Below, in pieces: positions 9,401-24,334 of a DNA stretch of 26,209 nucleotides (the stretch's first letter is position 1; every line of letters begins with the position of its first letter). Below the pieces are notes generated by a model that searched no databases, had not been told where the DNA came from, and saw only the letters and a program-made list of their open reading frames with translations. Both the position numbers and the translations under genes were made by a program. Where the stretch lies: the NCBI GenBank assembly GCA_024243835.1, contig JALPMN010000592.1:1-26209 (forward strand), in the 5' to 3' direction. Origin of the DNA: Enteropsectra breve (Eukaryota > Microsporidia).

Positions 9401-11135
9401 ATCCCCATAGAGAAAATGTGTTATAGAACTTTGTGAGAAGCGTCTTTATGTTGATATTAAAAATCATCTCGAGATTTGTGTGGTGCAGCAACATCAAGTT
9501 CTTGTAGAAAGAGGCGGCCATGCTGCTAATGTTGATGTTATCTTTGCTGCTTATATTGATATTATCTTTGTAGTTTGCTTGACAGACTGTGAGTGGGAAG
9601 ATAAAGAATTCAGCGAGGACTCTCGCTTCCTCAGGAGAGAAAAGCTTGGACTGGGCAGGCAGTGCGCCTATAGCGTATATAATTGAGTTTATGTACCCCA
9701 TGAGCAGGGTGAGGCACTCTTCCTCGCTGTTGCAGCCATCTTTATCGCTAATGCCCATAAAATTGTCTTCTCTTATATTACTGTTATTAAGCTCTTTATT
9801 AAATTCTCTATTAAATATTCTATTTAGAGGCTCTTGACTAGAATCTGCATTTTGTTTGCTGTGCGAAAGATACAGCTGATAGAGACAGCGGCAGTGGTGA
9901 ATCTGCAGCGAAATGTGCTTCTTGAAATCATAGCTCTCTTTTATCGCAAGATAGCGGTAGATGCTCAGATTAGCGGTGAGTGCTGCCAGGCAGCTGCTGA
10001 TCACAGAAACATCACGTGTCTTGGGAAGCATCTCTGATATGCGGCGGTCGAACTGGTCCAAAAGCCCAAAATTAATCCCAATGTTCGGAATGTTGTAGCT
10101 GCTGTTGAGAAATCCAGTCGCAATTTCAAGGTACGCCTTGCTGAGTGATGAATCACTGATTATATTAAGCGGTGATCGGAAGAAAAGCATGTCAATCGAG
10201 GAAAAATGGTGCCGTTTGTGGAAAATCGTGTCAAAAATGGCCTTGAGAGCCTCCTTTTTAAGGGACACGCAGTCAGAGGGGATGAGTGTTGCCAGGTTCG
10301 AGCAGAGATTGGGCAGATATTGGCAAATATTCTTGTAGTACGGCATATTTCCAATACTCAGCGCACCGCTCCGGTTTCCATAGCCGTATTCATTGCCTCC
10401 ACAGTCTCTTTCCAGAATATTCATGAAACTAAGCAAATTAATAATAAACGTAGAATAGTCGCATATTAATTTCTTATTTTCCATCGATAGCAGGGATGGC
10501 ATCGCAAAGAGCTGGCTGACAACCATAGAGAGTGTGCGGAGAATACTCTCATAGTAGTGCAGATCAATCTGGTGGAAGGCATGGAAATCTGTGAGGTACT
10601 GAAGGGCATCTGCAGCAGTGAAAAATCCAAGCTCTTTCTTCGCCGAGTCCTCAGAATCTACAAGCGAAAGCTCATTGACGAAAAAGGAATTCACCATCGA
10701 AAGATGCAGATTTATGTCTCTTATCGCTGGAGTCTCAATGAGGGGGGACATGGCACGCAGCGCTAAGTACCGGTTAAAGATATTCTCTTTGCTGAGAAGA
10801 TCGTAGAGCAGCAGCATCGTTTCGCTCAATATTTCAAGCTCGCTGTTTCCGCTTGTGCCAGGATTTTCACAACTCGTTTCCAGTAGCTCGGTAAACCTTA
10901 TTTTGGCAAGCATCCGTATAAAAAATACTCGAATTTGGTTGTTGGCGCTGCTAGGATTGAAGTTTTTCTCAGGCTGAAATTTTGCAAAAACCTGCCGCAC
11001 AAAGGGCAGCAGCAGGTGCAGATACCTGCTGGGTGCCGCCAGAACGGGCATAAAGGCGGGTGTTTGTGTAAATGCCTGTATCTCCTCGATTTTTTCTTCC
11101 AGTGTTTTGCTTGAAGAAATAATTTCGTAAAACAT
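459..11135 (-). CDS. TRA1: Tra1/TRRAP-like PIKK-family pseudokinase
   Basis: Probable homologue of Tra1/TRRAP, the scaffold subunit of SAGA and NuA4 acetyltransferase complexes that is contacted by transcription activators in the nucleus. The product is 3558 residues, close to the roughly 3700-3800 of yeast and human proteins. Most of it is helical repeat. Near residues 275-318 there is a stretch (LPNLCSNL..., VSLKKEALKAI..., ending SSIDML) matching the TRRAP segment LRKELL-A-HIL...F-P-IDELL. FAT-like helices lie around residue 2850 (KALKEKLYLKASYILNEI). The C-terminal kinase-like region has VHGSRDF near 3325 and VPFIRPNIQELMG near 3470, like the Tra1 VPFR-TPN segment, and no HRD or DFG motif, as expected of this catalytically dead branch. 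The protein ends in GWL. The frame extends upstream to a TTG at 11156, but the first ATG is at 11135, directly after AGCCCTATC, a CCC-type microsporidian start signal. Asn-rich low-complexity insertions interrupt it many times. TOR or ATM is less likely because the catalytic motifs are absent. Confidence 0.85.
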   Translation of the reverse strand: MFYEIISSSKTLEEKIEEIQAFTQTPAFMPVLAAPSRYLHLLLPFVRQVFAKFQPEKNFNPSSANNQIRVFFIRMLAKIRFTELLETSCENPGTSGNSELEILSETMLLLYDLLSKENIFNRYLALRAMSPLIETPAIRDINLHLSMVNSFFVNELSLVDSEDSAKKELGFFTAADALQYLTDFHAFHQIDLHYYESILRTLSMVVSQLFAMPSLLSMENKKLICDYSTFIINLLSFMNILERDCGGNEYGYGNRSGALSIGNMPYYKNICQYLPNLCSNLATLIPSDCVSLKKEALKAIFDTIFHKRHHFSSIDMLFFRSPLNIISDSSLSKAYLEIATGFLNSSYNIPNIGINFGLLDQFDRRISEMLPKTRDVSVISSCLAALTANLSIYRYLAIKESYDFKKHISLQIHHCRCLYQLYLSHSKQNADSSQEPLNRIFNREFNKELNNSNIREDNFMGISDKDGCNSEEECLTLLMGYINSIIYAIGALPAQSKLFSPEEARVLAEFFIFPLTVCQANYKDNINISSKDNINISSMAASFYKNLMLLHHTNLEMIFNINIKTLLTKFYNTFSLWGFLCEMPSINHIVILEANKLVYRDIILGNYKPMEFYEAVIPIAYSFFRMDKKNYKPEYSSYFSMIYISLLEIKADSKKTLRFLKILNRFFLDVKMTDGGYTGLFFIYETFEKVARELYYLYCITCEIFYIECLLNIPVSLNLLITRSDLLIKPFEIALSSSRRLREIVLKYVDYIVEFNNDDGKLDKILYRVFILINASHHYGPKKSFIVDNTANDETNIRAMHILAKISNYNRMNLINYTHREYTDYSRALVFLPYHFKCSAESDIVVNENTLLALDAETKAKTAFSPVQIDVSSIVRGLIKNLIGVEFVYEYKFITHESMIRDKRKIKACYKEKINGSPKDVRDALIKYFMILAGITSISEGEKKLSESFKKAMDIKKDSQIKMCDDFLQECKSNGASKKLHLLIEDILLAFYMDTSEESHRIIDLSIELYVSSFASAADIHNNNSNNINHNNNINNDINKDINSDKGNYSVDDIDRGVFTKVLVDALIYSSSRAKEAVEYLLELLDHYSLQEEKGKFISEQLRELVFHIYSSDDFIAFRSMRAVLFYLDVANGKRHYRRESKNIYREGYLSHSHNLHQTHNPCICPKGSGQNAASFWIDETLALKIFHALKIKLGNTQSIRAYELCIKISNALIKQMDASAFKYFEMVFTPKIPLASGTETSGNLTAHENLQVKIFYYEMLSQYDTHVPNTQAASNSNNSNFRFCIMRLLNLNENILERYDKILPTVDAFIKLISKKDLPAIGAYLHAFKKLKNIGKATYNSVIASMKKNLPTVAVIEGFKSIEEKRKFVESVNKSTTQCNTIQTNTLNSLQVFKSLFYKNSINVFIRNNYIEMYTSSPYKDVIYEILLGVREYDMATFEFLIENLSSYLSRNNAVFHSSPVVYHRGPSFFKNIGLANTLRTRIGDKMEFWYVLISNLHNQDIYELVGCIIEKRHSTILTEWLTTFYDCIVNGKNFGKPYSYSFKPYKGSANGLAQNMLNAMNSLRILRSFGTRFSINDLVLIVYEYLSPGTCLFDGLINFYVPFFSIQEIDYLHKINANFRFVPGAYLLDKLVEVKGNKALRDFILRSFDEVFKGVFISDDASTNDNNNKNNVNKNILNLDNAINVNKNSENNEYNNEETDLLSINSTPSCNIFTGADEVGNAFAESDSENSIDSLFMDASSISDESAVSSVSDESVVSTESMDDYRKGLASHSCKESSNKINTVDNSSNNINTVDNSSNNINTVDNSSNNNTFNNSKNNIYGSKNSVSSAFDAVTIDKFYYALSDCNEALLEFFCSHRILHKELISIAESAFSSPSLRYLSIYYLCLFKPSKDLFGAVFKLNHNERKYSIECLSLLYDKYGLEPFSSTIITLLQAEMRYEAVRHILIPFILERRDVLLNTEIFVDLSVLAHKMFSRGEMNYELLAAIAGREQSSTVTNKGTIDNKNEELNIGSDGIVKELNTLVINHEILNESYTLFPNCSIFHTNKVNFKKIKKNILFMHMNKYPELYRKHVEKENPGDMEMILEGWGDAEIVSGMSEWLAEHAPLEWFIEANSSIQSQFLGHYVKRLGLSSSNGVIDENDSNSNTNTNSNPNSNSSGIDNNYGNINSSGIDNNYGNINNINSIDSNSVMDKSTAIRNDMHILLEICRRLIENGSEGPAIKIILSQIPQEILVKWIHSISIATLISNTFMENIACEMMYKIEFKQAIDLCAKYPKKEMLFLHLYKIYGRNIPIQKEFLRGLNSTDSPVRRMYIELYLSILLNEEHCTFSLLLSKVMNIILKMDYSLLDDSVAEELVAAVLIKLVRSHPHVIAFSQKNNSFGHSATIDLKSFSMDATSTTNSHFNTMNNNIYNMNNMKNNVNSSFSEYALKDNFRLETILRLSKEYISFIHGALEGIFKEMDLVGMKEMYRIFMEGNAKGQIRKILCMAFAPYQLKIQDQDDSENKSGMASKGCCSSIENSSVQHACNVHSFSAKYYLSLLDMPLAFGKIISSPGIREVKTISRLCLYGKYEEAVAMIFEIFKGIENRTVSYKRDDLRMLEEILSFIYREYYSIHAMNGTCDTNVFLKSSPSTTNNFTSNNTNNNFNNNNYANNNYANNNSKSGDTPDEYTFCDAFDVLYSSFNTNYLDILSFDFNSLLIKIISAKFPINDELIEQTKCILKRFDISRNIPRGSNLFNRILLYSGICAEIIEINSLYIENQYENIYGRIRLWMNRYPLMEGDMFEWSQFIRWRVFCFNSIIEMIDSTSVNNSISSTGVNINNSNSNRKKIGADICKLYCLYATKALKEKLYLKASYILNEINSIQIIELKQNLQKHFLDIEALYKSGNYGNITSLVSSINIGRLSAEGRALLYHWGYKAVLKMGKYSEALKYNVLSRRMGEIVENRKEDLRILRTLLRADKEANCNIFAKNNSEEMDLYRGIISEADSMSKENTSIAEKYKNLLIGLINEVTIEESRPLVLEYLGSVRHLENSNQIKDKADINQIDEKKLFYFRDELSAIGYHDYNNEAMKKCRYGETVCIDVINKHSDAQVKEKYRSAKEAMEKLMKELDAKKCKGRGKGQADNENININENININENININENINNYREETCDAIDDLKKVVKYFMETDYRYSYSFTNTNKVLHYFKNDIPMIGEYSRMRNEYENIKYMEYIEGYYNLKDVVNNGLYIRRSDGELVKISFDIHNLKNDIYNIKNDNINIRDGINDKDIIDIRDSIIDNNINKRFAQRKCKEILAFYARNSHALNKNGYSHKFYTTVENSGIKNYKIIVHGSRDFSVKDAIFGHMRGICCSSSDIICDYFRNNKKSIGFASAALKYRNTLKNEMINRTMNAKIYYSIRKNFINSYSSIVGMEYLVGMEHLVGGECSMGSKSENMKGYECSMENIMIEMESGQVKIRDSALCRDEVPFIRPNIQELMGQEGINGSFVVILKCLAEEMLENESIGEILRFYMGNVERINKKMKNIVNEKNGGAELAVGEMVDLRNGMEMDVREMGWL
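1695..1760 (-). repeat. 18-bp coding minisatellite in TRA1 (NENINI repeats)
   Basis: Three full copies and one partial copy of an 18-bp unit (attttcattaatattaat on the plus strand) start at 1695, 1713, 1731 and 1749. They encode a repeated Asn-Glu-Asn-Ile-Asn-Ile hexapeptide near residues 3125-3147, between the FAT region and the pseudokinase. The unit is a multiple of three, so copy-number change keeps the frame. Confidence 0.85.
3151..3180 (-). repeat. 15-bp coding repeat in TRA1 (NNNYA)
   Basis: Two exact copies of ttattattagcatag (3151-3165 and 3166-3180) are followed by further Asn codons to about 3230. They encode NNNYA pentapeptides inside an Asn-rich linker near residue 2650 of the Tra1-like protein. 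Confidence 0.8.
4595..4666 (-). repeat. 36-bp coding repeat in TRA1 (GIDNNYGNINSS)
   Basis: Two near-identical 36-bp copies begin at 4595 and 4631 (plus strand tattaccataattattatc...). They encode the 12-residue unit GIDNNYGNINSS, flanked by a longer Asn/Ser-rich tract, near residues 2156-2180. In-frame expansion of a disordered linker is the simplest reading. Confidence 0.85.
5701..5790 (-). repeat. 30-bp coding minisatellite in TRA1 (INTVDNSSNN)
   Basis: Three consecutive 30-bp copies: 5701-5730 and 5731-5760 are identical, and 5761-5790 differs at two positions. They encode the decapeptide INTVDNSSNN near residues 1782-1811. Two identical adjacent copies point to recent duplication and a locus likely to vary in length between isolates. 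Confidence 0.9.
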
Positions 11136-11144
11136 GATAGGGCT
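11136..11144 (-). promoter_or_regulatory. CCC-type start signal before TRA1
   Basis: Read on the minus strand the bases directly before the ATG are AGCCCTATC, preceded by an A/T run (AAATTTTT). CCC- or GGG-centred motifs a few bases upstream of the ATG are an established feature of microsporidian genes. Here it supports 11135 as the start codon instead of the in-frame TTG at 11156. The assignment rests on position and motif only. Confidence 0.55.
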
Positions 11145-11467
11145 AAAAATTTTCAAGAGTAAACAAAATGAGAAAAAAGGAAAATGGCGGGACCTTTTGG
11201 TAATAATAATAAGAGATTATAAAAGGGATTAAATGAACTAGATAACAGCATCTAACTAAAGAAAAATTATCTTTTAGGCACAAAATATTAATATTTTTCT
11301 AGAAGTTAATATTGGCATATCAGCTATAAGAACCATTTTAAACTTGCATCTCATGTTTGTTCTGGAAATTTTAAAACTGAAGTAAACAGCAGGAAGGCTT
11401 TCGGTGCTAATTACAGTCTAAATGCTGTAGAAAGAACGATTCAATCCAACCCCTAAGGCTCTTTCAT

Positions 11468-11632
11468 TTAAAATTTTGCCTTCAAGAAATCATATCTGGC
11501 AAACACCTGATATTCCACCTCTGGACTATCAGAAGTAGTAGAATTGTAACGCAAACGATATATTTTTCGTGAAAAGCATTTATTAGTTCGGATTAATTGT
11601 TCATTGAAACAAATGGTAGATATATGGTTCAT
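11468..11632 (-). CDS. Possible 54-residue protein, unrecognised
   Basis: A short minus-strand frame starts at an ATG (MNHISTICFNEQLIRT...) and ends ...ARYDFLKAKF before TAA. The frame is open upstream for eight more codons to a TGA. Its composition is protein-like, with balanced charge and tyrosines, and with none of the Lys/Asn/Ile/Phe bias typical of random AT-rich DNA. It is unlike the A/B/C family. There is no clear start motif. It could be a small gene, the tail of a decayed gene, or chance. It sits on the same strand between paralogue A and TRA1. Confidence 0.3.
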   Translation of the reverse strand: MNHISTICFNEQLIRTNKCFSRKIYRLRYNSTTSDSPEVEYQVFARYDFLKAKF

Positions 11633-11818
11633 GGCTATACGTTTAAAATTCTTAAATAATCAAGTAATATTCTTTTGCAACTTCTTTGAACGCATTGAGT
11701 GCAAGGCCATTCCTAAATGAAATACCTAAGTGGAGTAATGTGAAATTTTCATTTTTACTACAAAAAGAATATTTGAGATAAAATATTGGGGTAACAAGAT
11801 TAAAACCAAATTTATATT

Positions 11819-13903
11819 TTAATCATTATCGACATAGTTAATAATATTGTTGATCAACCCCTCGTGTCTTTCTTCTTTTTCTTCGACGGATAAGCAAGGC
11901 ATTTCATCATTCCATACACCATTCTGCATTTCAAACTCTAAAAACTTTGTTGCTGGGATGCAATAGTGCAGCTTTCTTTCGATAGTATGAATATCCACTA
12001 TTATCTTCAAATTGGGTCCGATTAGATTTTGTCTTTCTTTACAGAAATTTACCAGAGATAACTTTAAAATATTCAGTGCCACTTGAACGTTACTGTCTAC
12101 AGTCAATTTAAATGCAATTATACCATTTTGAACATCAACTAGATTAAACGCATTTCTCAGAGAAGCTTCTGAAATGAAGTTTCTTGCAGACATATCGAAC
12201 TCAATGCTTTTAACAGCACCGCTGTTTCTAATAAAATTTCCTGCCAGGTCTGAGTTAATCAGCAGTTTGTCAGTATTAAAAAGAGTAAATATCAAGTCAT
12301 GCTGGGAAGGATAATGCGAGAGTTCTGGTACAAACCTTCTAAGATATTGATGTCCAGTCACGTAGGTTGCCAAATAGTGTTCGTGCCTGTACACGAGGGT
12401 TATCGTTTCGATTTTTAAAGGATATCCAATTTTACCCAAAACAATTTCTCCGTTTGTATTGCACAAATCAGAGGGTATCGTGTAAGAGCAAGGAATGATG
12501 CTCTGGTTGCCTGAAATAATAGTCACATTCTTAAGCTGCTGTTTGCCCAGAATCGCACCCACAATACGTGCAATGACTGGATTTCCCTTAAAGTGTTGTA
12601 CGCTCGCTCTAAGTTCGCATTCTTCTTTCAAAAGATATACGATGTATTCGCATTCAAATTCCGTTGTCAATCCATATAAGCCGAGAGTTTGAAGTTTCAT
12701 TTTCTTAAGTTTTTCAAGAATAGCTGAAGAGAGCTTGCCGTATCCAATAAGGCTCAGCGATTTTATATTGTCAAGCAAATTGCTGTTTTCAGCAAGAAGA
12801 ACTGAAATCACATCGGTGATTGTTTTTCCAGGCTCTGTAGTCGATTCTTCTATTTCAATATGCCTCAGGGATGGGAACAGGAAGATTAAATTGTGGTAGA
12901 ATGAGCTTATGCTTTCCCCAATCATCAAGTGGCACAAGGCTTTCAAGTGAGAAACAAGCGGGAAGAATGTGAGCTGGTTAAAAAGATCAAAGACAGAGGC
13001 ACGTTCGTAAATGCCATTTCCAAAGGCAACAGCTGGCCTAAGAACCAGTGTTCCATCACGGTGCATGCCGTACCCAAACATTTCTCTGTTTTTACTGATG
13101 AAAAGATCGGTTACCTGCCCATTTATCTCGCCAAAACTTATTATACTGAAAACAGCTCTTTCAGTATGTAGATCTTTAATAATTTCTAAAAACCTCCCAA
13201 TGTGATAATTGGCTCCTGTCATTTTAAGGTTAGTATTATTGCTAAGCACCCTGCTTTTATATCGATCAAACATTTGCATTCTGTGCAGCTCAAGTGCCAA
13301 GTTTATGGTAAAAAGCACATTCTTTTCCATAACGCAGTGCGTTTTTCGCCTAGTTTTTTCATTTGTAAGGAAAATGTCTGCGGAAGAGCCGCATTCAAAG
13401 GACAGCTGTGCGTATTCCCGCAAAAGACGAACGACATCAACTTGCTTCGCTAACAATTTTTCAGTAATCAACTCATTTCGCATTCTCAATATTGTTTTTA
13501 TATGTTTGAAATCGAAAGAGTAGTGAGCTCTTATTATTACTTTAATTTCTTTCAAAAAAGTTAAGGCAGCATTATCCCAAAGCTGCAATGCCTCCTGGCA
13601 TTTTATCTTCCTTAAAAAGCATTCTGATGTGTTATTAACATCCCGTGCATCACTGACAATTTTATCGTAATTCTGGAATACTACATTAAGGCATTCTTTA
13701 AGCAAGTTTAAAGAAGGCCCATATCTGTTTTTCTCTTCCATTGTGTAAAACAATTCATTAAAACCGTTCCGTTTGAAGTATTTGCTGTGGTGCAGATCAA
13801 TGTAAGAAATGTTTCTGAGGATGCTTTCAGCATTATCGACAGATACATTAAGCCCCTCTGCATAGTCCCTGGTGTATGGCAAGACAGTAAGGGCCGATGA
13901 CAT
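11819..13903 (-). CDS. Paralogue A of a ~700-residue LRR-like family, no leader
   Basis: A 694-residue protein of unknown function, clearly homologous along its length to the products at 17810-19894 and 20172-22349. Shared blocks in order are: LRMRNELI near 140; GSSADIF near 172; VMEKNVLFTINLA near 190; a block with FGYG near 277 followed by DGTL-L-P-AF; ASVFDLF and LKALCH near 300-325; and SLSLIGYGKLSSAILEKL...LGLYG near 382-412, which has the spacing of leucine-rich repeats. The frame opens at a TTG nine bases upstream, but the first ATG is at 13903. Its N terminus (SSALTVL) lines up with about residue 27 of paralogue B, so the hydrophobic leader seen in B is missing. The transposon begins about 250 bp upstream. 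It may be cytosolic, or a copy truncated at its 5' end. Confidence 0.9.
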   Translation of the reverse strand: MSSALTVLPYTRDYAEGLNVSVDNAESILRNISYIDLHHSKYFKRNGFNELFYTMEEKNRYGPSLNLLKECLNVVFQNYDKIVSDARDVNNTSECFLRKIKCQEALQLWDNAALTFLKEIKVIIRAHYSFDFKHIKTILRMRNELITEKLLAKQVDVVRLLREYAQLSFECGSSADIFLTNEKTRRKTHCVMEKNVLFTINLALELHRMQMFDRYKSRVLSNNTNLKMTGANYHIGRFLEIIKDLHTERAVFSIISFGEINGQVTDLFISKNREMFGYGMHRDGTLVLRPAVAFGNGIYERASVFDLFNQLTFFPLVSHLKALCHLMIGESISSFYHNLIFLFPSLRHIEIEESTTEPGKTITDVISVLLAENSNLLDNIKSLSLIGYGKLSSAILEKLKKMKLQTLGLYGLTTEFECEYIVYLLKEECELRASVQHFKGNPVIARIVGAILGKQQLKNVTIISGNQSIIPCSYTIPSDLCNTNGEIVLGKIGYPLKIETITLVYRHEHYLATYVTGHQYLRRFVPELSHYPSQHDLIFTLFNTDKLLINSDLAGNFIRNSGAVKSIEFDMSARNFISEASLRNAFNLVDVQNGIIAFKLTVDSNVQVALNILKLSLVNFCKERQNLIGPNLKIIVDIHTIERKLHYCIPATKFLEFEMQNGVWNDEMPCLSVEEKEERHEGLINNIINYVDND

Positions 13904-14150
13904 CGAAATCAACTAAATTACTAGTCTTTTTTTGATCGATATTTCCCTAGCGATCATTTTAGCAGGGCACAAAATTTTTTTTATAAAACCTTTTTATTAA
14001 AAATGATAAAAGCTAAACAACCACATTGGATTTTTGTCAATATGATTGTTAAGCAGTCTTTTATATAGCATTATGCTATTAATACAACATAATGAATGTT
14101 AACTTTTATCCAAGTATAGTGTTTGATATTTTTATTATTTTTTAAAGGAT
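13904..14150. other. Upstream region of paralogue A
   Basis: AT-rich promoter region between paralogue A and the left arm of the transposon. It holds a near-perfect palindrome at 14065-14079. It also holds a 22-bp stretch (14078-14099) resembling DNA upstream of paralogue B. No alternative first exon encoding a leader was found in the nearest 90 bases. Confidence 0.45.
14065..14079. repeat. 15-bp palindrome upstream of paralogue A
   Basis: atagcat-t-atgctat has perfect 7-bp arms around one central base, about 165 bp upstream of the paralogue A ATG. A half copy (atagcataatg) occurs at 20143-20153 upstream of paralogue B. It could be a protein-binding site, but short AT-rich palindromes arise easily by chance. 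Confidence 0.4.
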
Positions 14151-14157
14151 TAAATAT

Positions 14158-14402
14158 AAAAATATAAAGTTTGTTATAAAATTTGTAAAAATATATAAAA
14201 ATGCAAAGAAATTTAACAAAAATATAAAACCATATAATCTGTTACCTAAATATAAAAATTAAAGACAAGTTTACAGAAATATAAAACAGCGGAAAGAATA
14301 TTGCAAAAAATATATGATATTAAAATGTATTTATAAAAATATATAATCAACAAATATCAAAATGCGGAAATATATACCTGTTGTAGACAATTACAAAATT
14401 GT
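14158..14402 (+). repeat. Left-arm array of ~30-bp spaced transposon motifs
   Basis: Matches to a tt(a)caaaaatataaa-like motif have cores starting at about 14158, 14187, 14218, 14246, 14275, 14306, 14335, 14366 and 14395, with spacings of 28-31 bp. The DNA between motifs is not conserved. Such regular subterminal sites are most simply read as multiple transposase-binding sites within the terminal inverted repeat. It is not a CRISPR array because the repeat is too short and too degenerate. Confidence 0.7.
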
Positions 14403-14632
14403 AGAATGAAGAAATATTCACTCGAACGTAACATTTTTGTAAATAAAAGTTTTACTAAAAACTTTACAAAAATGTAAAGGTAAAATGGCAATATTATGAA
14501 AATATAAACAGACAAACATAAATTTACAGCATTATAATATTTTGTAAAATTTGTTAACAAAAAAGTAGAAAAAAAAACTCATATGAATAGCAAGATCCAC
14601 TTAATTTAATTGTAAAAATATAAAGAAGCAAT

Positions 14633-16357
14633 TTACTCGTTTTCTGCATTTATAAAATTTCTGTTTCTCGGGCATTTTCTCTTATCATGGCCAGGCTGTG
14701 CACATTTGCTATATGTTTTCCTCCTCCTCATACGAATCTCTGCTTGGGCCCTAATTCTTTCTCTGTTTGCCGGTCTGCCTCTTCTATTATGGGAGTAAGC
14801 GCTGGCAACAGAAATGGGAACCAAATTGTCAGTATCAATCATGGTGATGTATCCGCTGTAAACCTGTTTTAGAGCACCTACCATTCTTTTTTCAGAGATA
14901 AATTTATCTTTTACAGCATTGTCGACATTTATAATGGTGCAGGCATGAATGCATGGTAGCCCAAATTCCCTAGTGTACAGGCAGCTACATTCTCCATTTT
15001 CAGCATTGACAATTCTAGCCTGAGCGCAGCCTTCAACCTTTTGTACCTCAAACATATCAGAATTCGGTATTTTTGCCACTGACAGGAATCTCGCTTTATT
15101 TAGTAGTTCTTCTAGCTGAATTGCTAAAGTTTTATCAAGTTCTCCGTCTCTAAAAGTTTCCACTGATATAGAGTTTTTTAAAATATTAGCGTTGATAATT
15201 CGTGAAATCCCAATCATAATATCAAGAGGTTGCATTTTTCTCACAGAAGCTAGTGAGGAGTTGATAGCCTCTGCAACATTAGAAGTAATATGCCCAAAGC
15301 GCGGTACAGGGAAGAAAGCAGATGCCCAATTTTGTCTGGGTATACTGCGAATGTATCCAGCAACAGCAGGTCCTTTGTCATTTTCAATTTGTGTCATGTA
15401 ATTTTCAAATTCACATGGGCTATATACTCTTGCAGCAGGCCACAGCTTGGGGCATGAGCGCCTATATCTCGAGACAATATTTCTTTCAATATGCGCAAGA
15501 CAAAAAGAATGCGAGGCCGATGGTACTATAGCCTGAATGGCATTTTCGAGGCCCTTTTCCCTATCGCTTATTATAACTAAATTACGAGCATTATTTAATA
15601 GAAGGCTTTCATTCAGCAGCTGTAGAAATTTTGTCCAGTATTCCTCATTCTCAGAGGGTGCTATAGCATATCCTATGATTATGCCTTTGTTGTGCCCTGT
15701 TATCGCTGTGGCAACCATAATTATTCCTTTATATTTCCCTTTGGTGTGGCATGCATCCAATGTAAATATCGGTAATGTATTTTGAAAAGTGTTATATGCA
15801 TATGACGGTATTAACGCACAGTATTTAAATGACATTGTTCCATCTTCGTTTTCTTGGTTTAAATAGTCGATTCTTGTGCCATTTTGAACACGGCATACTT
15901 CGAGCAACCACGGATGAATAAGAGAAAAAGATCTTTCCTCATTTTGAATTCTTCCCTGTCTTAAATGACGTAATCCTGCATAGGCTTTGTTAAATGTTGT
16001 GGTTATTCCACAATTGTTGATTAAAAATTGTTGACAGTCTTTTGTACTCAGATTTGAAACTGTATTTTCTACTTTTCTTATATGCATGGCAACTAACTTA
16101 TTTTTGATACAAGATCTTTGTGTATTGCAGCTGTGCTGATCAAATGCTGTAACTTCATATAGATGTTTCTTGTTTCTTTTGACCTCAAATTTGAATGAAC
16201 ACTCTAGATCTATACATTTCATTAGATAAACATATTTATTGCTCTGTATTACTTTACCTGTTCTTTGAGAACTTAAATTATATGAGTATGCAAACAGGCT
16301 TATCTCTTCTCTTGTTGCAAATATTTTTTTTGTATTCTCTTCGTTGCCCAACATCAT
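14633..16357 (-). CDS. MULE transposase with SWIM zinc finger
   Basis: Cut-and-paste transposase of the Mutator-like superfamily, 574 residues. The N-terminal Mutator-type DNA-binding zinc domain has ligands C48, C53, H75 and C77. A MULE DDE domain follows, with D201 (FTLDACHTKGKYKG), D265 (ISDREKGLENA), the C286-x2-H289 insertion (CLAHIERN) and probable third acidic residue E363 (TSNVAEAINSSL). A SWIM finger has C457-x-C459-x9-C469-x-H471. A C-terminal zinc knuckle (YSKCAQPGHDKRKC) has Tyr where the first Cys is expected. The frame opens at a TTG at 16387, but tandem ATGs at 16357 and 16354 give the first Met. No internal stop or frameshift is present, so the gene looks recently functional. 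The flanking arms are its likely binding sites. Confidence 0.93.
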   Translation of the reverse strand: MMLGNEENTKKIFATREEISLFAYSYNLSSQRTGKVIQSNKYVYLMKCIDLECSFKFEVKRNKKHLYEVTAFDQHSCNTQRSCIKNKLVAMHIRKVENTVSNLSTKDCQQFLINNCGITTTFNKAYAGLRHLRQGRIQNEERSFSLIHPWLLEVCRVQNGTRIDYLNQENEDGTMSFKYCALIPSYAYNTFQNTLPIFTLDACHTKGKYKGIIMVATAITGHNKGIIIGYAIAPSENEEYWTKFLQLLNESLLLNNARNLVIISDREKGLENAIQAIVPSASHSFCLAHIERNIVSRYRRSCPKLWPAARVYSPCEFENYMTQIENDKGPAVAGYIRSIPRQNWASAFFPVPRFGHITSNVAEAINSSLASVRKMQPLDIMIGISRIINANILKNSISVETFRDGELDKTLAIQLEELLNKARFLSVAKIPNSDMFEVQKVEGCAQARIVNAENGECSCLYTREFGLPCIHACTIINVDNAVKDKFISEKRMVGALKQVYSGYITMIDTDNLVPISVASAYSHNRRGRPANRERIRAQAEIRMRRRKTYSKCAQPGHDKRKCPRNRNFINAENE

Positions 16358-16412
16358 ACCCGTCTCAGAAAAATTTTTAATAATCAAATTTTTGTTGCAA
16401 TCTTTATAATGG

Positions 16413-16630
16413 AAGATTTTTGTAATTTTTTGTCTTTTTTTATATTTTTCTAAATTTTGAATATCTCAGTTTTATAGTTTAATAAAATATTCGCAGGAGC
16501 ATAATATTTTTGCAAAAGATTTTTTAGTTTCTATATATTTTTGTAATTTATTTTATGAATCATATATTTTCATAGAAAATCTTTTGCTTTTATATTTTTG
16601 TAAATATTCTTTAATTTTTATATATTTCTA
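16413..16630 (-). repeat. Right-arm array of ~30-bp spaced transposon motifs
   Basis: On the plus strand the complementary core (atattttt-like) starts at about 16413, 16442, 16475, 16504, 16535, 16564, 16592 and 16622, with spacings of 28-33 bp. This is the same motif and period as the left arm in opposite orientation, so the two arrays are symmetric about the transposase gene. The outermost motif lies about 180 bp upstream of the ATG of the secreted-protein gene. Confidence 0.7.
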
Positions 16631-16670
16631 TAATATTTATTTGGCATTTTACAAAACCATAATCTGCCCT

Positions 16671-16808
16671 TTTTTAAATAGCAATACTGGTGGCTAATGG
16701 ACTATAAGCCCATTATGATTCGTTTAAAGAATTAAAGGGGAATAGAATTACTATTGGTGCATATATTTTCAAGAAAGGCTATTGGCTGCTGATGATTTAA
16801 ATATTAAA
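16671..16808 (+). promoter_or_regulatory. Upstream region of the secreted-protein gene
   Basis: About 140 bp between the transposon's right arm and the first ATG. It contains a small inverted repeat (taatgg at 16696 and ccatta near 16716) and an aaagggg tract ending at 16740, about 70 bp before the start. With the transposon so close, part of this gene's promoter may be element-derived. No specific control site can be assigned. Confidence 0.3.
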
Positions 16809-17744
16809 ATGGAAAGTCATGCAATGATTCGCAGCATAAGATCAAGCATCTATATATTAGCACTAGTCCTTTTAAATGCCAACGCAGAAGAAGCGAAAAA
16901 TGACATTAACTTCACACCTCTTGATCCTAGTTTTGCAATGCTTCAATTCCCAGGGCCCGGAGAAGTGAGTGTTATACGCCAAAATATGTACGGTGAATCA
17001 ACATTTTCGTTGAGAAAACTGAATCTTATTGTCAGTGGTGCATATAGGGGATGGGAGCCTGTATTTCACGGAACAGACCTTTATTTTGGAGGCGAAGGCT
17101 ACAGCATAGAGCCGGAGAAATGCTCAAGCTACAGAACAATTCCACTCTTAGTTACTGTTTATTATCCTGACGTGGCTGAAGTTTGTACTTATTTTTTTGA
17201 ATCAGAGGGAGGCAAGAGGGTGCTTAAGAATAAAGAACGGGCAAGCGATCCATATGCTAATGCTGTGTGGAAGTTTGTAAAAAGGGGAACAAGGCTTAAT
17301 ATGCTAAATTCCATGCCTCTTGATCTTAATTTTGTAAGGTATGAATTTCCGCAGCCTAGCGAGGTAAAAGTTTCGCTTTCACTTTACACTGAAGGGTCAG
17401 AGTATAATTTAGAATATTTTTTTATCGTGACAGGAAAATATCGGGGATGGGAGCCTGAGGTTGTTGGAGAAAACATTTATTTTGGGGGAGAAGGTTACAG
17501 CACAAAACCACGGGGTGGTCTTGTTGACATGAGGGTTCCACTTACAATCAATGTTTTATATTTTGATGTTGAAGAAGTATGTATTTATAAGTTTGAGCCT
17601 AAAAATGGCAAGATGGAGCTTAAGAAAACTGAAAGGCAAATATTGTATGGTCTTTCAGAAGTTCAGAGATATGATAAACATAAGGAAGAGCTTAAGGTGT
17701 ATAATTCTGAGGAATTAGCTAGGGAACTCCAAGCAAGCTTTTGA
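16809..17744 (+). CDS. Probable secreted protein with two tandem GWEP/FGGEGYS domains
   Basis: 311 residues. Residues 1-26 form a signal peptide: basic RSIRSS, then the hydrophobic IYILALVLL, and a plausible cleavage after ANA. Two copies of one roughly 110-residue domain follow. Copy 1 contains LDPSFAMLQFP, YRGWEPVFHGTDLYFGGEGY and VPDVAEVC-like elements (PDVAEVCTYFFE). Copy 2 contains LDLNFVRYEFP, YRGWEPEVVGENIYFGGEGY and FDVEEVCIYKFE. Each copy has a single Cys in the VxEVC position. A short charged tail ends ELQASF, and there is no membrane anchor. The frame opens at a TTG at 16782; ATG codons at 16809 and 16824 both keep the leader. I do not recognise the domain. It looks beta-rich and might bind a surface or host ligand, but that is inference. 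Confidence 0.88.
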   Translation: MESHAMIRSIRSSIYILALVLLNANAEEAKNDINFTPLDPSFAMLQFPGPGEVSVIRQNMYGESTFSLRKLNLIVSGAYRGWEPVFHGTDLYFGGEGYSIEPEKCSSYRTIPLLVTVYYPDVAEVCTYFFESEGGKRVLKNKERASDPYANAVWKFVKRGTRLNMLNSMPLDLNFVRYEFPQPSEVKVSLSLYTEGSEYNLEYFFIVTGKYRGWEPEVVGENIYFGGEGYSTKPRGGLVDMRVPLTINVLYFDVEEVCIYKFEPKNGKMELKKTERQILYGLSEVQRYDKHKEELKVYNSEELARELQASF

Positions 17745-17809
17745 TGGTTAAAGTAAAGCATTTTTCGCTTATGAAGTTTTTAAAATTTTTAAACAAAGTT
17801 TTGTTCCAT

Positions 17810-19894
17810 TTAATCAACATACAAATCATCAACAATACGCTCAACAAAGTCCAAACGCACTTCTTCACGTAATTCTATGTCAATTTCATTGTCTTTTTTT
17901 TTCATACACCACCGTAAAACATTGTTCTGCAGGGCGTTCTTTGCTAGCTGATTCTTTTCCAATATCCTTATGCTTATTATGATTTTCAAATTACCTCTTG
18001 AATGCTCTTGCGCGGCACCAATCTCTGTAAAAATACTGAATAGTCCCCTGTTCAAATCTCCACATCCCTTCTCCAGCAATTTATTGAATGAGCAGCTTAT
18101 TAAAATCCGGCCGTTCTCGGGGCCCAAGAGCCTGAATGCATTTTTCAAGCTCTCTTCTACTTTATCATCGTCAGGCCTTATGGTTATGAATACTCTCTTT
18201 GCCGATGGATTATCTACCAATTCGAAGTTGCTGCTCTTTGATGCAAGAGGTATGTTGTTATCAGCACTAAAAGTCTGAAATATAAATTTCTCATATACTC
18301 CGGTTGATTTTAGGGCCAAGAATTCTTTTTTAAGCACAGGCATAGAGTCTTGTGTCTTCACAACATAATAATGGAACCTGTAATTTATGATTATTAATTT
18401 GAGCCGTATCTGCTCATTACTTATTTCCTTATTTATATTCTTAATCACTTCTGACAGAGGAACAACAGATTGTGTACCTAAAATAAAGACTACTTCCTCA
18501 AGCTGGTTTTTATCCAAAAGCTGAGAGAGCTGAAGGGCACACACCGGGCTGCCCGCAAAACCAATAATGCTTTTCTTAAGCTCACAAGGAAAAGTAAAGA
18601 GGTACCTGATATTGCTAAGATTAATAGCAAAACTCTCGCACAACAGCCCCAGATGCCTGAATTTCTTAGTTTTAAGGGCATCTAAAATCTTCTTTGACAA
18701 AGTATTGTAACCAATTATACTAAAAGATGTTACATTTCGAATAATGTCAGCGTTTTCGATAAGTACCGCCTCTATGATTTCCAAAAATGAATCGCATTCC
18801 AAAGCGACAAAAGAAACCTGTTCCGATGCCTCCATTTCGATATCCTCAAGGAACTTGAAGACTCGAATTAAAGAAGTAAAGAAATGTTTCTGCCCAATAC
18901 CAAATGCTTCATGGCACAGTGCCTTAAGCTGGTTGATTTTGTAGAATGCCGTTAAAAGATCAAATACTCGGAACACCGAGGCTCGTTCAAATGCCGAATT
19001 TTCGAATGCAGCGCATGGTCGAAGAGTGAGTGTTCCATCTATTCGTGACCCATAGCCAAATAATTCGTTGTCTTTGCCTATAAAAATATCTGTAAGTCGT
19101 TCATTTTCCTGCTTTATTTCGATAATTGTGATAACCGCTTTCTCCAAGGTACATCCTTCAAGAGCCTCTATTAATTCTAGTATATTAAGCGAATGCTTTT
19201 TGTCTGACAGTAAGGCATTCTTACAGTCTTGCAGGCAATTTGCATGGTGCATGGCTATTGCAAGATTAATTGCAAAAAGTATATTGCACTCCATAACAAC
19301 GTGTCTTCTCTGAGAGTCGGCGGTATCCCGAAGGAATATGTCAGCATGAGAGCCTTCTGAATACTTTAAGAGAGAATACGCATTGATTAGATCACTCAGA
19401 TTCTCTTGCAGCACAATGATTCTATCGTGTATTAGTTCTCTACGCATTCGCAATATGATTTTAAGCCAGTGAATCTCAATAGAATCTGAAATCTGAAACC
19501 TCTTTTCACCCGCCTGTTTTATTTCAACATAAACTTTGTTAGTATAAAGCCCCCTTTGCTCTTCCAACTTTCTTAACTGCTCAGAAAAGTTTTCAGGCGT
19601 GTCATCGTATTTGCAGGCCTCCTTTCTGATTGCTTCTCTTACTTTTGTTACAATCAAAAGATTAGTGCTAAGTGCGATGTTCTGATTGAATATTTCATTG
19701 CTGGAGGACTGTGATTCCATGTTGCAATTTAGCAGCGCACTACTGCAGATTATTTCGCTGTATTCACAATCCTGAAGCTTTCCATGCTTGTTGTACAGAG
19801 TAAACGCCAGTGAATGGTCTATGTTTCTCGAGAGCTCAAGAACTTCTAGTGACCATGCCAGGTTTACTAACGATGTTGCAATATAAAAAAGCAT
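17810..19894 (-). CDS. Paralogue B of the ~700-residue LRR-like family, with leader
   Basis: 694 residues, homologous to products A and C. The N terminus MLFYIATSLVNLAWS looks like a short signal peptide, suggesting entry to the secretory pathway. Family blocks in order are: LRMRRELI near 150; GSHADIFL; VMECNILFAINLAIAMH; LFGYG followed by DGTLTLRP and AF; ASVFRVFDLLTAF; QLKALCHE; SFSIIGYNTLSKKIL...HLGLL; then AGSPVCALQLSQLLDKNQLEEVVF. The last residues, ERIVDDLYVD, match the hydrophobic/acidic tails of A and C. ATG 19894 is preceded by CAGGGTCTCTAAA, a GGG-type signal about 8-10 bases upstream. The gene is tandem with C (277 bp apart, same strand). Function unknown; the LRR-like centre suggests protein binding. 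Confidence 0.9.
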   Translation of the reverse strand: MLFYIATSLVNLAWSLEVLELSRNIDHSLAFTLYNKHGKLQDCEYSEIICSSALLNCNMESQSSSNEIFNQNIALSTNLLIVTKVREAIRKEACKYDDTPENFSEQLRKLEEQRGLYTNKVYVEIKQAGEKRFQISDSIEIHWLKIILRMRRELIHDRIIVLQENLSDLINAYSLLKYSEGSHADIFLRDTADSQRRHVVMECNILFAINLAIAMHHANCLQDCKNALLSDKKHSLNILELIEALEGCTLEKAVITIIEIKQENERLTDIFIGKDNELFGYGSRIDGTLTLRPCAAFENSAFERASVFRVFDLLTAFYKINQLKALCHEAFGIGQKHFFTSLIRVFKFLEDIEMEASEQVSFVALECDSFLEIIEAVLIENADIIRNVTSFSIIGYNTLSKKILDALKTKKFRHLGLLCESFAINLSNIRYLFTFPCELKKSIIGFAGSPVCALQLSQLLDKNQLEEVVFILGTQSVVPLSEVIKNINKEISNEQIRLKLIIINYRFHYYVVKTQDSMPVLKKEFLALKSTGVYEKFIFQTFSADNNIPLASKSSNFELVDNPSAKRVFITIRPDDDKVEESLKNAFRLLGPENGRILISCSFNKLLEKGCGDLNRGLFSIFTEIGAAQEHSRGNLKIIISIRILEKNQLAKNALQNNVLRWCMKKKDNEIDIELREEVRLDFVERIVDDLYVD

Positions 19895-20171
19895 TTTAGA
19901 GACCCTGAAAACTTAAAATTTTTAATGAAAAAAGATAAAGGTAAAAGAAAAATATTATAGTTTTTGTTGTAAAATAAAGCTTCATATTCTAAGTGCAATA
20001 TTCCTAAGCACGAACAAATGTATGTAAAATGTCTTTATAACTTTTGGCCTATATTTGTAATTTTATTGATTCATAATCAGATATCGGCAGCATAATACCC
20101 TTATTTTGCTGATAACCTAAAGCAGACACATTATTAATATAATAGCATAATGAAGTGTATAAAAAGCTATT
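19895..20171. other. Intergenic region between paralogues B and C
   Basis: 277 bp, AT-rich, holding the promoter of B and the 3' flank of C. It contains an imperfect inverted repeat (20082-20095 with 20101-20114, 11 of 14 positions pairing around a tacc-type loop). It also contains a stretch at 20133-20158 resembling DNA upstream of paralogue A. No RNA gene or further frame was seen. Confidence 0.45.
20082..20114. repeat. Imperfect hairpin between paralogues C and B
   Basis: tatcggcagcataa pairs with ttattttgctgata with three mismatches and a five-base spacer. It lies about 60 bp past the stop of C and 190 bp upstream of the ATG of B. It could form an RNA hairpin in the 3' end of C or be an operator for B. 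The evidence is sequence symmetry only. Confidence 0.35.
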
Positions 20172-22349
20172 TTAATCAATTGAAATGCTTTTTATCAGTT
20201 CGCCAACAAATGATGGATATTGCTGCTGCTCTAAGCCTACTTTTAGATATGGATGCCTATTATTTTGCATTTTGACAATTTCCTTGAAATGTTCATTCTG
20301 TTCTAATTCCCTTTCGTTGTGTGCTGCCAGAGTTCTGGGCTGCATCACAAGTTCAAATGAAATTCCCGAATACATTCGTGTCACTTGTTCTGGTATTGCA
20401 CAGCTCAGCGTTCTGATGATATCAGCACACCCAAGCACGTTTATCTCTATGCGCCCACCATCCAAAGAAGCAACTGATACTGCGTTATACAAAGCTGCAT
20501 AAGGAATATACTGCCCTTCAGATACGTAAAATCTTATTCTTTTGATTGCATCTTGTGCAAAACCCGCATCACTGTAGAATTCAGAGCCCAGGATAAGCAT
20601 CTGTGCCTTGCATATGCTGAAAATAATCTTTTCGTGTGATCCCATTACCTGTAGGCTGAATGCCTCTTTGGTCAAAAATCGTTTTTCCTCAATAGTTCTT
20701 AAATTATACTGGTAGAACTTATAAATAATAGCCATAGTCTCCAGCTCAATGTGTTTTTCAAGCTGCACTGCACTTTCAATTGAATACCCATGGAAATATG
20801 TCCTCATGAGATTCAACTCTTCTTCATTTCCAGCAAACCAGTCATAGTACACATGCTCATTCTGCAAACCTCTTATAAAAATGCCTTCTTTCAGTTGGTT
20901 TTCTTTCAACAGCTTGGATATCAGATAAATACAGGTAGGGCTGCTTTTGTAGCTCGTAATGCTATCCGAGATGACAGAAGATCCGGTAAAGAGCTTTAAT
21001 GTATAAAAACAGTCCTTGAAAAGATATTTTCCATAAAGGCCGAGCTGCTTGAAATTCGTCCATCTGAGCAGTGCTAATGCTTCATCTGAAAGCACATTGT
21101 ACCCAACAATGCTGAAATTTTGGAGTTTTCTAACTACCCTTCTATCAGTCAAAATCGCTTTTAATACGGAATTTATGGGTGTTTCTGAATTATCGCATTC
21201 TTCTTCATAGACTCCTTTAAGGGACTCCTCCAGCTCAACATCGTTAATCGATGGAAATACTCTTAATATTGATAGGTAAAACTGTGCCAAGTTTTCTGCC
21301 ATTTCTTCATGGCATACTGCACGAAGATGAACGATACTGGGAAATGCCGTCATGCAATCAAATACTTTGAATGCAGATGCCACACAGTGCTTTTCGGTGC
21401 CAAATGCAAATTTGGGTTTTAGCAAAAAGAATCCTGAGCGATGGAGCCCAAACCCAAAAGCCTGTCCTGCATGGCTTACAACTATATCACTGATTTTATT
21501 ATCCATGGAGTAAGTAATGTCTATTATGGAAATAACCGCGCATACGTATTTGAAGGGTTTCATTGCATTTAGAAATCTTGCCAAATATTTGTCGCTCTTG
21601 CAGTCTTTGTGGGTCTCAGGATTCATCAGAACACTTTTGTACTTGGAAAAATAATCCAATCTTTTCAAGTTAATGGCTATATTAATGGCAAATAGTGTGT
21701 TTCGTTCCATTAGGATGTGGGTTGGAGTGCTGTAGTAGTGTTCACCGATGAAAACATCTGTATACGAGCCATGTGCAAAAGCAAGATGTTCATACAGTTC
21801 CAAAATCTGCAATAGAGTTGATATGTTACAGACCCTTTTATGAATTAAGAGATTTTTGCGCATCTTAAAAACAATGTCAAGATGGCCTATATTGTATCCT
21901 TTGCCTAAGAACTTTTCTTTCTTCTTCAAGTTTTTAAGTGTGACAAAATCTGGATTTTCCTGCAGCAAAACTGCCGTTTTACGCTGCACATTTTGGTAAA
22001 AGCTCTCGGGTGATTCACTGCCTTTTCTCTCTGATTTGGCTACTTCCTCATAGGTATTAAGCACATTTGAGAACATGCTGTGCATCGAACGTATATGCTC
22101 CGCTTTCTCTCCATCCTCATCCTGTTGCTTTGCGCACCCCATAAACCTGCTGCAGCTTCTTAAATCGCCGTAGTCATAGCTGTCCAGTGTTTCGCTTCCG
22201 TTAGTAATGGCAACCCTTATTTCATCGCCGAATACATAGTCGTTTGAGAAAACATACAGGGCTGCTGCATGGCACATGATCCAATACCCGTTTAACATGC
22301 GCATTGCGTCTAAGGTTTTTATGAAAAATATTTTTAAAAATTTACTCAT
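20172..22349 (-). CDS. Paralogue C of the ~700-residue LRR-like family
   Basis: 725 residues and the most diverged of the three. The blocks match A and B in order: FKMRKNLL near 168; GSYTDVFIG; LMERNTLFAINIAINLKRL; AFGFG-LHRSG-F-L-P-FAFG; ASAFKVFDCMTAFPSIVHLRAVCHE; NFSIVGYNVLSDEAL...QLGLYG; and a tail ending GELIKSISID. The first ATG (22349) follows an in-frame TTG and gives a Lys/Phe-rich start. A second possible start at 22304 (MRMLNGYWIMCHAAAL) would place a hydrophobic segment at the N terminus like a signal peptide. Either way a hydrophobic stretch at residues 18-35 precedes the mature part. Function unknown. C is upstream of B on the same strand, so the pair may be a tandem duplication. 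Confidence 0.88.
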   Translation of the reverse strand: MSKFLKIFFIKTLDAMRMLNGYWIMCHAAALYVFSNDYVFGDEIRVAITNGSETLDSYDYGDLRSCSRFMGCAKQQDEDGEKAEHIRSMHSMFSNVLNTYEEVAKSERKGSESPESFYQNVQRKTAVLLQENPDFVTLKNLKKKEKFLGKGYNIGHLDIVFKMRKNLLIHKRVCNISTLLQILELYEHLAFAHGSYTDVFIGEHYYSTPTHILMERNTLFAINIAINLKRLDYFSKYKSVLMNPETHKDCKSDKYLARFLNAMKPFKYVCAVISIIDITYSMDNKISDIVVSHAGQAFGFGLHRSGFFLLKPKFAFGTEKHCVASAFKVFDCMTAFPSIVHLRAVCHEEMAENLAQFYLSILRVFPSINDVELEESLKGVYEEECDNSETPINSVLKAILTDRRVVRKLQNFSIVGYNVLSDEALALLRWTNFKQLGLYGKYLFKDCFYTLKLFTGSSVISDSITSYKSSPTCIYLISKLLKENQLKEGIFIRGLQNEHVYYDWFAGNEEELNLMRTYFHGYSIESAVQLEKHIELETMAIIYKFYQYNLRTIEEKRFLTKEAFSLQVMGSHEKIIFSICKAQMLILGSEFYSDAGFAQDAIKRIRFYVSEGQYIPYAALYNAVSVASLDGGRIEINVLGCADIIRTLSCAIPEQVTRMYSGISFELVMQPRTLAAHNERELEQNEHFKEIVKMQNNRHPYLKVGLEQQQYPSFVGELIKSISID

Positions 22350-23128: not shown

Positions 23129-24334
23129 CTATTTTTTGCGGTTTTTCTCTATTAGTGTTTCAAGGCACACAACCATCTTTTTGAATTCAACAGAGTTTCC
23201 CTGTGTCTTCTTTATTGTCACTAGACACCTTTTGCTCATCTGGTGCACTGACAGCTGTCCAACTAGTTTGTTGCGCTGTGTATCCGTTGTGCTAAAGCAT
23301 ATTATGTTATCACATGTCTCATAGCCTATTTTTAGCTGTGCAAATTTTTGTTCGAAAAATTTTAACACGTCATCCTCATTACCGTTGATGTATGAGCGGT
23401 AGAACACTGGGAAGCTTGTTGTCTGGTGTGGCATTGAGCTGCTTATGTATTTTTCATTTGCTGCAGGTCTTGCGCGTTCAGGCTGTGAGTAGAGATTTTC
23501 CTGTTCTACTGTGTAGATTCCTACCAGGAAGGAACTGTCTGTGCAGTCGTTTTTACTGTCCAGTAGCTGGTTGCTCTGCGAGAACCACTGGTCTTTGCAG
23601 ATATCAGAGAGTGTGTAGCGTTTTGATTCAACTGCCAGCATATTCTCAATGAGTTGCACAGTGCTTTTTCTAATTTGGCTGAATGGCTCATAGTAGTGCA
23701 ATTTAGCCTCAAGGTACTGGGTATAAAGCTTATCACTGGGAACAGCGCTGTCCCACGGCAGTTTTGCAGTAAACATATTGATGAGAGTTATGCCTGCAGA
23801 CCACACATCAGCAGCAGAGCCGTCATAATCTCGGCGAAACACTTCTGGAGCCATGTACTGATAGCTCCCTGCAGTGCCAGTGCATCTAATTGGCTCGCTG
23901 TCTTGGCGCAAAACAGTGCTGTATCCAAAATCTGCCAATTTTAAGTTTCCTGAATACGAAACTAGAAGATTCTCTGGCTTTATGTCTCGGTGGCAGATAT
24001 TCTTGCTGTGGATGAATTTTAGTGCATCGATGAGCTGCACAAAAAGCATATGGACGATCTGGGGGCTGAGCCCAAGAGCATTGTGTATCAAAGTATGCAG
24101 GCAGAAAGGCTCGAAATCCATAAGAATGGAATAGGAGTCGGGATTTTGAAAGCTCTTTATAAAGCGGACAATCCTCTTGCTTTTAAGAAATCTGTGAATT
24201 TTGATTTCACGCTGTATTTTTGCCTCATCGCGCGTTCTGAGATACATTATCTTTATTGCATGTGTTTTGCCATCAATAACCACCTTCTTGACTTTTGATG
24301 TCGGGCCGTTATCAATTGTTGATCCAGAATCCAT
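23129..24334 (-). CDS. CHK1: CHK1-type checkpoint serine/threonine kinase
   Basis: 401 residues. The kinase domain has K28 (HAIKIM), helix-C E43, HRD at 115-117 with N122 (CHRDIKPENLL), DFG at 135-137 and APE at 162-164. WSAGITLINMFTAKLPWD resembles the CHK1 segment ending LPWD. The C-terminal part (about 308-395) contains ICFSTTDTQRNKLVGQL and GNSVEFKKMVV. These match the KA1-like regulatory domain of CHK1 (ISTTD-R-NKL and G-EFKR), which separates CHK1 from other CAMK-type kinases. Established role of the family: DNA-damage and replication checkpoint signalling downstream of ATR/ATM. The glycine loop is degenerate (IDNGPTSKV keeps one Gly) and very little sequence precedes it. The frame opens at TTG 24340, and the first ATG is 24334. 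Confidence 0.92.
   Translation of the reverse strand: MDSGSTIDNGPTSKVKKVVIDGKTHAIKIMYLRTRDEAKIQREIKIHRFLKSKRIVRFIKSFQNPDSYSILMDFEPFCLHTLIHNALGLSPQIVHMLFVQLIDALKFIHSKNICHRDIKPENLLVSYSGNLKLADFGYSTVLRQDSEPIRCTGTAGSYQYMAPEVFRRDYDGSAADVWSAGITLINMFTAKLPWDSAVPSDKLYTQYLEAKLHYYEPFSQIRKSTVQLIENMLAVESKRYTLSDICKDQWFSQSNQLLDSKNDCTDSSFLVGIYTVEQENLYSQPERARPAANEKYISSSMPHQTTSFPVFYRSYINGNEDDVLKFFEQKFAQLKIGYETCDNIICFSTTDTQRNKLVGQLSVHQMSKRCLVTIKKTQGNSVEFKKMVVCLETLIEKNRKK

Follow-up and report, generated by a model that had tools for sequence, protein, structure and literature searches.

Three paralogous genes on one contig of the microsporidian Enteropsectra breve belong to a large, possibly private gene family of candidate secreted proteins

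Are three diverged open reading frames (ORFs) on one strand of a single microsporidian contig a small local cluster, or members of something larger, and what might their products do? The window analyzed here, all 26,209 nucleotides of Enteropsectra breve contig JALPMN010000592.1 (GCA_024243835.1), makes up the whole of C51, one of 155 contigs in an assembly of 3,958,979 bases, and carries genes A (11819..13903, 694 codons), B (17810..19894, 694 codons), and C (20172..22349, 725 codons), all on the minus strand. We propose, with a probability of about 0.6, that A, B, and C are members of a large lineage-private microsporidian family whose secreted proteins have the infected host cell as their target. 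A first-pass annotation of this DNA had described three paralogues of these sizes and positions, on the same strand and homologous over their whole length, and this description holds: BLASTP alignments among the three are near full length (620-690 columns), with 30% identity for A and B (E 4e-78), 26% for A and C (E 9e-65), and 26% for B and C (E 1e-58).

The ordered sequence blocks seen at that stage are also present, as invariant columns of the A/B/C alignment: M141 R142 L145 and G172 S173 D176 F178 in the first blocks; M192 E193 N195 L197 F198 I200 N201 A203 in the ME-N-LF-IN-A block; F276 G277 G279 G284 L288 P290 A293 F294 in the FG block; A302 S303 F305 F308 and L320 A322 C324 H325 in the AS-F and A-CH blocks; and G387 Y388 L391 S392 and L407 G408 L409 in the last blocks. 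Identical in all 13 members of group 1, the subdivision of the family that includes A, B, and C, are M141 R142 L145, D176 F178, H189, and F198 I200 N201 A203 in the N-terminal half, and further on F276, P290, A302 S303 F308, C324, Y388, and G408 L409; the proposed GSxxDxF block thus keeps D176 and F178 throughout group 1, but not its "GS".

The three paralogues share a contig, but A and B are not adjacent, two ORFs from outside the family lying between them. In a maximum-likelihood tree of 13 group-1 and 5 group-2 members, group 1 forms one side of a branch with support 100/100; C pairs (100/100) with a gene on contig C17, its nearest relative at 40% identity, while A and B pair with each other at 94/94, below star level. 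With C on a branch apart from A and B, recent tandem duplication does not simply explain all three genes, although A and B could be a tandem pair of some age.

Extent of the family and its relatives in databases

Three paralogues prove to be a real family and a considerable undercount. Searches of the E. breve assembly with six queries, once united, define 83 family places on 50 contigs: at E<=0.01 the queries B, C, L047 (group 2), and L031 (group 3) gave 48, 57, 53, and 67 matches, and at E<=0.001 L059 and L053 gave 58 and 52. The places were clustered by simple distance rules with redundant contigs still counted, and the search counts are lower bounds; distinct genes are fewer than 83, some contigs being redundant, and the weakest of the 83 places may be chance matches. 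Together the places span 142 kb, or 3.6% of the assembly; 62 of them are at least 1.5 kb long, and 40 have another within 4 kb.

The 37 members studied fall into four groups of 13, 17, 5, and 2 (groups 1, 2, 3a, and 3b; the group-1 count excludes a redundant copy on contig C134). Profile-profile comparison links the groups over 296-645 columns with probabilities of 99.9% (1 and 2), 99.9% (1 and 3a), 99.8% (2 and 3a), 99.1% (1 and 3b), 96.6% (3a and 3b), and 86.8% (2 and 3b), compared with 0.1-0.3% in twelve controls that used unrelated proteins of the same assembly: uL3, a giant ORF (in two pieces), and a MULE transposase. Length is also consistent, at 630-812 codons in 26 of the 28 members that have both ends (the other two have 547 and 411). 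Alignment A2 holds 21 of the 37 members; the leader and start-signal tests below cover 32 and 24 of them (A being excluded from the latter).

No named relative emerged, as the first-pass annotation had anticipated, from Pfam, NCBIfam, the PDB, or the protein database searched. Pfam gave nothing above its cut-off for A, B, C, or the further members among the 21 scanned (the lowest value, 1.2e-4 for CNOT1_1st in one of the 21, is under the cut-off); NCBIfam gave no match for A, B, or C; and no PDB sequence matched family members. Two profile searches of about 5.8 billion proteins, in which the best 7,994 and 7,993 word-sharing candidates were scored, returned gene A itself only, and none of 396 and 511 matches of the A/B/C patterns in prokaryotic and viral contigs was confirmed. 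Nor could we find the family described in the text of the open-licence papers searched, where families are seldom given as sequence.

Big private gene families are a known microsporidian feature. Large families rich in signal peptides have been described across microsporidia, 68 of them in 23 genomes (PMC5423893) and 39 in 13 nematode-infecting species (PMC10393165). To be called large, a family needs 10 or more homologues within a single genome, a two-fold enrichment in signal peptides being a further published criterion; most large families are genus- or species-specific, a usual trait rather than part of the definition (PMC5423893). Group 1 alone, with 13 members, is large in the sense of member number, and the present family, which matches none in the libraries that we searched, would be a new one of this known kind.

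Gene starts, leaders, and divergence

Microsporidian genes are reported to carry CCC-, GGG-, and AAATTT-like start signals and to have 5′ untranslated regions of less than 7 nucleotides (PMC2803860). Among the 24 family members tested, 17 have AAATTT in the 60 nucleotides upstream of the ATG, where shuffled sequence gives 3.2; 14 have CC in the 8 nucleotides directly before it, where shuffling gives 2.6; and 7 have CCC or GGG in the nearest 20 nucleotides, where shuffling gives 1.7; none of 1000 shuffles reached any of these counts. We conclude that the upstream signals of the family genes match those of microsporidian genes. Gene B has both AAATTT and GGG upstream. In C an AAATTT element falls within the first 15 codons and the alignment with its nearest relative begins at the second ATG, so that C may in truth start at 22304 and encode 710 residues.

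Ten of the 13 group-1 members, B among them, begin with a leader-like stretch, judged by hydrophobicity (Kyte-Doolittle at least 1.5 over 10 residues, within the first 35), and in the same ten an A or S, located by eye, stands right before a conserved "L/V/M-x-V" mature start. The three exceptions are one gene on contig C41, a gene on contig C155 whose upstream frame is open but has no ATG, and gene A. For A, a leader-like stretch does lie upstream (13904..13957, minus strand), with an in-frame ATG at 13957 preceded by AAATTT and CCC, but an in-frame stop cuts this stretch ahead of A's first ATG and leaves the 694-codon body intact. A therefore looks leaderless or recently disabled, although the broken leader could instead be an assembly error.

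Divergence is unevenly distributed along the proteins. In group 1 the core, which covers residues 131-480 of A, has a mean pairwise identity of 33-35%, and beyond residue 480 this drops to 21% and 18%; in group 2, where the count leaves out reference residues 441-499, it is 35%, as against 31% and then 22% towards the C-terminus. The first-pass annotation ascribed such divergence to diversifying evolution, which the ratios of nonsynonymous to synonymous substitution rates (dN/dS) do not show: of 11 pairs, eight were excluded for saturation, dS exceeding 1 in seven and defying computation in one, and the other three, together with an added pair (L059/L066), have dN/dS values of 0.41, 0.40, 0.38, and 0.47. 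Gene-wide positive selection is accordingly rejected, whole-gene dN/dS being below 1. The ratio is higher in the last 30% in all four pairs (0.74, 0.51, 0.42, and 0.55, versus 0.30, 0.35, 0.35, and 0.42). Evolution in these pairs is fast but constrained.

A proposed role, and the readings that compete with it

Judging from sequence, a secreted, host-facing function is the most likely one for this family; the leader-like starts, the variable C-terminus, and the analogy with Nematocida, whose large private families are rich in signal peptides and host-exposed (PMC5423893), all point this way. The N-terminal leader would send the protein into the secretory path and would be cut just before the "(L/V/M)xV" start; the conserved core would serve as a constant scaffold, and the most variable, C-terminal part would meet host partners. 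New copies would arise partly through local duplication and then drift apart, and gene A, its leader broken, would have a product that remains inside the parasite, or would be on its way to becoming a pseudogene.

Several observations weigh against this proposal. Of the links between groups, the one that ties group 2 to the two-member group 3b is the weakest. The description of the family as lineage-private comes from word-based searches that did not return the window's own B and C; since both are encoded in the window, the protein database or its filter must be incomplete here, and the same database did yield six relatives (25-30% identity) for the neighboring giant ORF. The start signals are general ones, AAATTT being found upstream of 4 of the 5 other ORFs in the window as well. 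A stricter leader test, which asks whether the start is more hydrophobic than 95% of a protein's own internal windows, was passed by 8 of 32 members only (4/13, 3/14, and 1/5 by group); many group-2 starts look weak, and leaders are weaker outside group 1. The N-terminal 130 residues of group 1, at 22% identity, are nearly as variable as the C-terminus. Finally, dN/dS is below 1 for whole genes; two windows of the youngest pair do exceed 1 (1.09 and 1.29), but they overlap (approximately residues 561-680), were drawn from many windows, and carry little weight.

An alternative that we consider possible but doubtful is that the family is a diverged leucine-rich-repeat (LRR) solenoid binding host proteins, like the secreted LRR families of Trachipleistophora hominis, Spraguea lophii, and Antonospora locustae, or NemLGF2 of Nematocida displodere; the first-pass annotation had likewise called the family LRR-like. 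By eye and crude propensity, the central blocks do alternate between a short beta-like and a helix-like stretch in steps of approximately 24-33 residues (in A, for example, strand-like "SLSLIGY", helix-like "LSSAILEKLKKM", and strand-like "LQTLGLYG"), although propensity-based secondary structure is too crude to decide the LRR question. The strict motif L..[LIV].[LIV]..[NC] occurs 11 times in group 1, where 5.0 are expected, more often than in any of 300 shuffles, but only 3 times in group 2, below the 6.5 expected by chance, and a relaxed motif is near chance in both groups (27 vs 21.6 in group 1, 19 vs 25.2 in group 2). On self-comparison of residues 300-640, the top-ranking offset is 29 and the third is 58, yet both lie inside the null; the central profile as a whole is inside the shuffled range (p 0.31 and 0.56), with no repeat standing out, and the sole region that does stand out, 130-300, does so at an offset of 88 (p 0.015), which is no LRR step. 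No LRR model appears among the Pfam matches of any of the 21 members at E up to 5, a listing limited by HMMER filters that drop most matches above approximately 0.1; the PDB, as noted, is equally silent. LRR_6 was uninformative as a genome query, since its lack of matches extended to all 14 controls. Apart from the excess of the strict motif in group 1, then, Pfam, PDB, self-comparison, and motif tests lead us to reject LRR membership from sequence.

The LRR families of T. hominis and S. lophii are the largest expanded families of their genomes, with 117 and 97 ORFs, and 37 of 52 complete S. lophii members have a signal peptide without a transmembrane domain (PMC3486916, PMC3749934); their authors find leucine-rich motifs, however, and no such profile match was found here. 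Family B of Antonospora (Paranosema) locustae resembles the present family in size (682 residues, with relatives of 63-86 kDa) and favors the solenoid reading to that extent; its products were seen as 63-80 kDa bands in the cytoplasm of infected host fat body and were secreted from Pichia, although immunolocalization failed and only one of five programs predicted a signal peptide (PMC3976299). Family B is called LRR by its authors, and our comparison is one of size and secretion. NemLGF2 of Nematocida displodere, which is LRR-like, differs both in size, averaging 467 residues as against 630-812 codons in most members here, and in carrying a RING in 113 of its 235 members; no RING-like pattern occurs in our 47 locus rows, which represent 37 distinct members, several more than once and some truncated C-terminally, nor did Pfam match a RING to any of the 21 members scanned, and membership in NemLGF2 is rejected for lack of a RING-like pattern.

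Less probable still, we think, is that the proteins are not secreted at all but form an internal family, or a selfish one tied to transposons, that expanded for reasons unrelated to the host. The weak leaders of many members, the lack of an intact leader in A, and the presence of a MULE transposase between A and B would all fit, but 10 of the 13 group-1 members combine a leader with a small-residue site, the Pfam scan of 21 members matched none to a transposase or nuclease model, and A and B both fall outside the inverted repeats that bound the MULE itself.

We regard as rather improbable a new fold consisting of a constant scaffold and a variable C-terminal arm, with a hidden common origin shared with other supposedly lineage-specific microsporidian families, such as NemLGF1 or A. 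locustae family B. NemLGF1 (Nematocida, but also Pancytospora) is likewise a large private family with signal peptides and 22-27% identity between the members compared, in which the N-terminal and middle parts are kept and the C-terminal part is divergent (PMC10393165, PMC5423893); the C-terminal part of NemLGF1 is a helix bundle by AlphaFold, and the two families are compared here by description only.

The very improbable suggestion that redundant assembly or alleles account for much of the apparent expansion is refuted as a full explanation: contig C134 does repeat 13,911 nucleotides of the window (100% over the 3,593, 2,001, and 312 nucleotides checked), C26 and C32 have identical ends and share a block with C83, and C78 and C129 have identical scores and are probably redundant, but the closest pairs listed for the 37 members share 19-67% protein identity, far beyond alleles, with the named redundant contigs as the exceptions.

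A second identical copy of A was rejected as a paralogue, C134 being redundant with the window. C134 (L002, L065, L067) corresponds to window positions 1-13911 in the opposite orientation, begins 8 nucleotides upstream of A's first ATG, and extends 1,455 nucleotides further, into a frame that by eye resembles an ABC transporter. The block on C26, C32, and C83 (L059, L066, L068, L069) holds two family genes, one 90% identical between C26 and C32, the other scoring identically on all three contigs. A subtelomeric location of the family found no support: among 27 stretches of 200 nucleotides, which included 17 distinct true contig ends, none contains a tandem run of three exact 4-9 nucleotide units, and since two contigs end in the same letters, the contig ends are probably assembly breaks.

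Neighboring genes and the place of the family in microsporidian biology

The window carries five further ORFs. Between A and B, and outside the family, are the MULE transposase (14633..16357, minus strand, 574 residues; PF10551, E 3.8e-17, and PF00872, E 7.8e-13), flanked at approximately 14176-14376 and 16441-16640 by AT-rich, degenerate inverted repeats of approximately 68% identity, and an ORF of 311 residues (16809..17744, plus strand) with a hydrophobic start and an internal duplication. The latter has no match in Pfam or NCBIfam, but contig C65 carries a group of three more matches, at 44%, 42%, and 35% identity, of which the 35% one contains stops; as far as sequence can tell, it is another small private family.

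The giant ORF of 3,558 residues (459-11135, minus strand) has the six database relatives mentioned above, but no Pfam match and no credible PDB match, and Pfam searches with three of the six relatives led nowhere; its C-terminus may resemble Tra1/TRRAP. A protein kinase of 401 residues lies at 23129-24334 on the minus strand, and all 22 PDB sequences matching it at E<=1e-30 are Chk1. An ORF of 341 residues (25053-26078, plus strand) has no Pfam or NCBIfam match.

Elsewhere in the assembly, the small-subunit (SSU) ribosomal RNA gene (contig C151, L063 1501-2904) has 62.5% G+C, compared with 27-47% per kb in the window, and matches the microsporidian SSU model RF02542 over its full length with 882 bits, although 9 of 14 prokaryote controls respond to this model too, so that the match is no proof by itself. 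The uL3 of the assembly scores best, without being identical to any of them, against the ribosome entries 6zu5, 7qep, 6rm3, and 7qca (500, 496, 489, and 449 bits), which we take to be those of the microsporidia P. locustae, E. cuniculi, V. necatrix, and S. lophii. The two results make a microsporidian source most likely.

Microsporidia are supposed to manipulate host cells mainly through private, fast-diverging secreted families, and the fold or target is known for few of these. A family that occupies 3.6% of a genome and combines a conserved core, a variable C-terminus, and better-defined starts is a good candidate for structure work, and is well suited to asking whether the private families of different genera have one origin. 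Were the shared origin considered above to be true, many private microsporidian families would be a single old host-interaction superfamily, split by extreme divergence.

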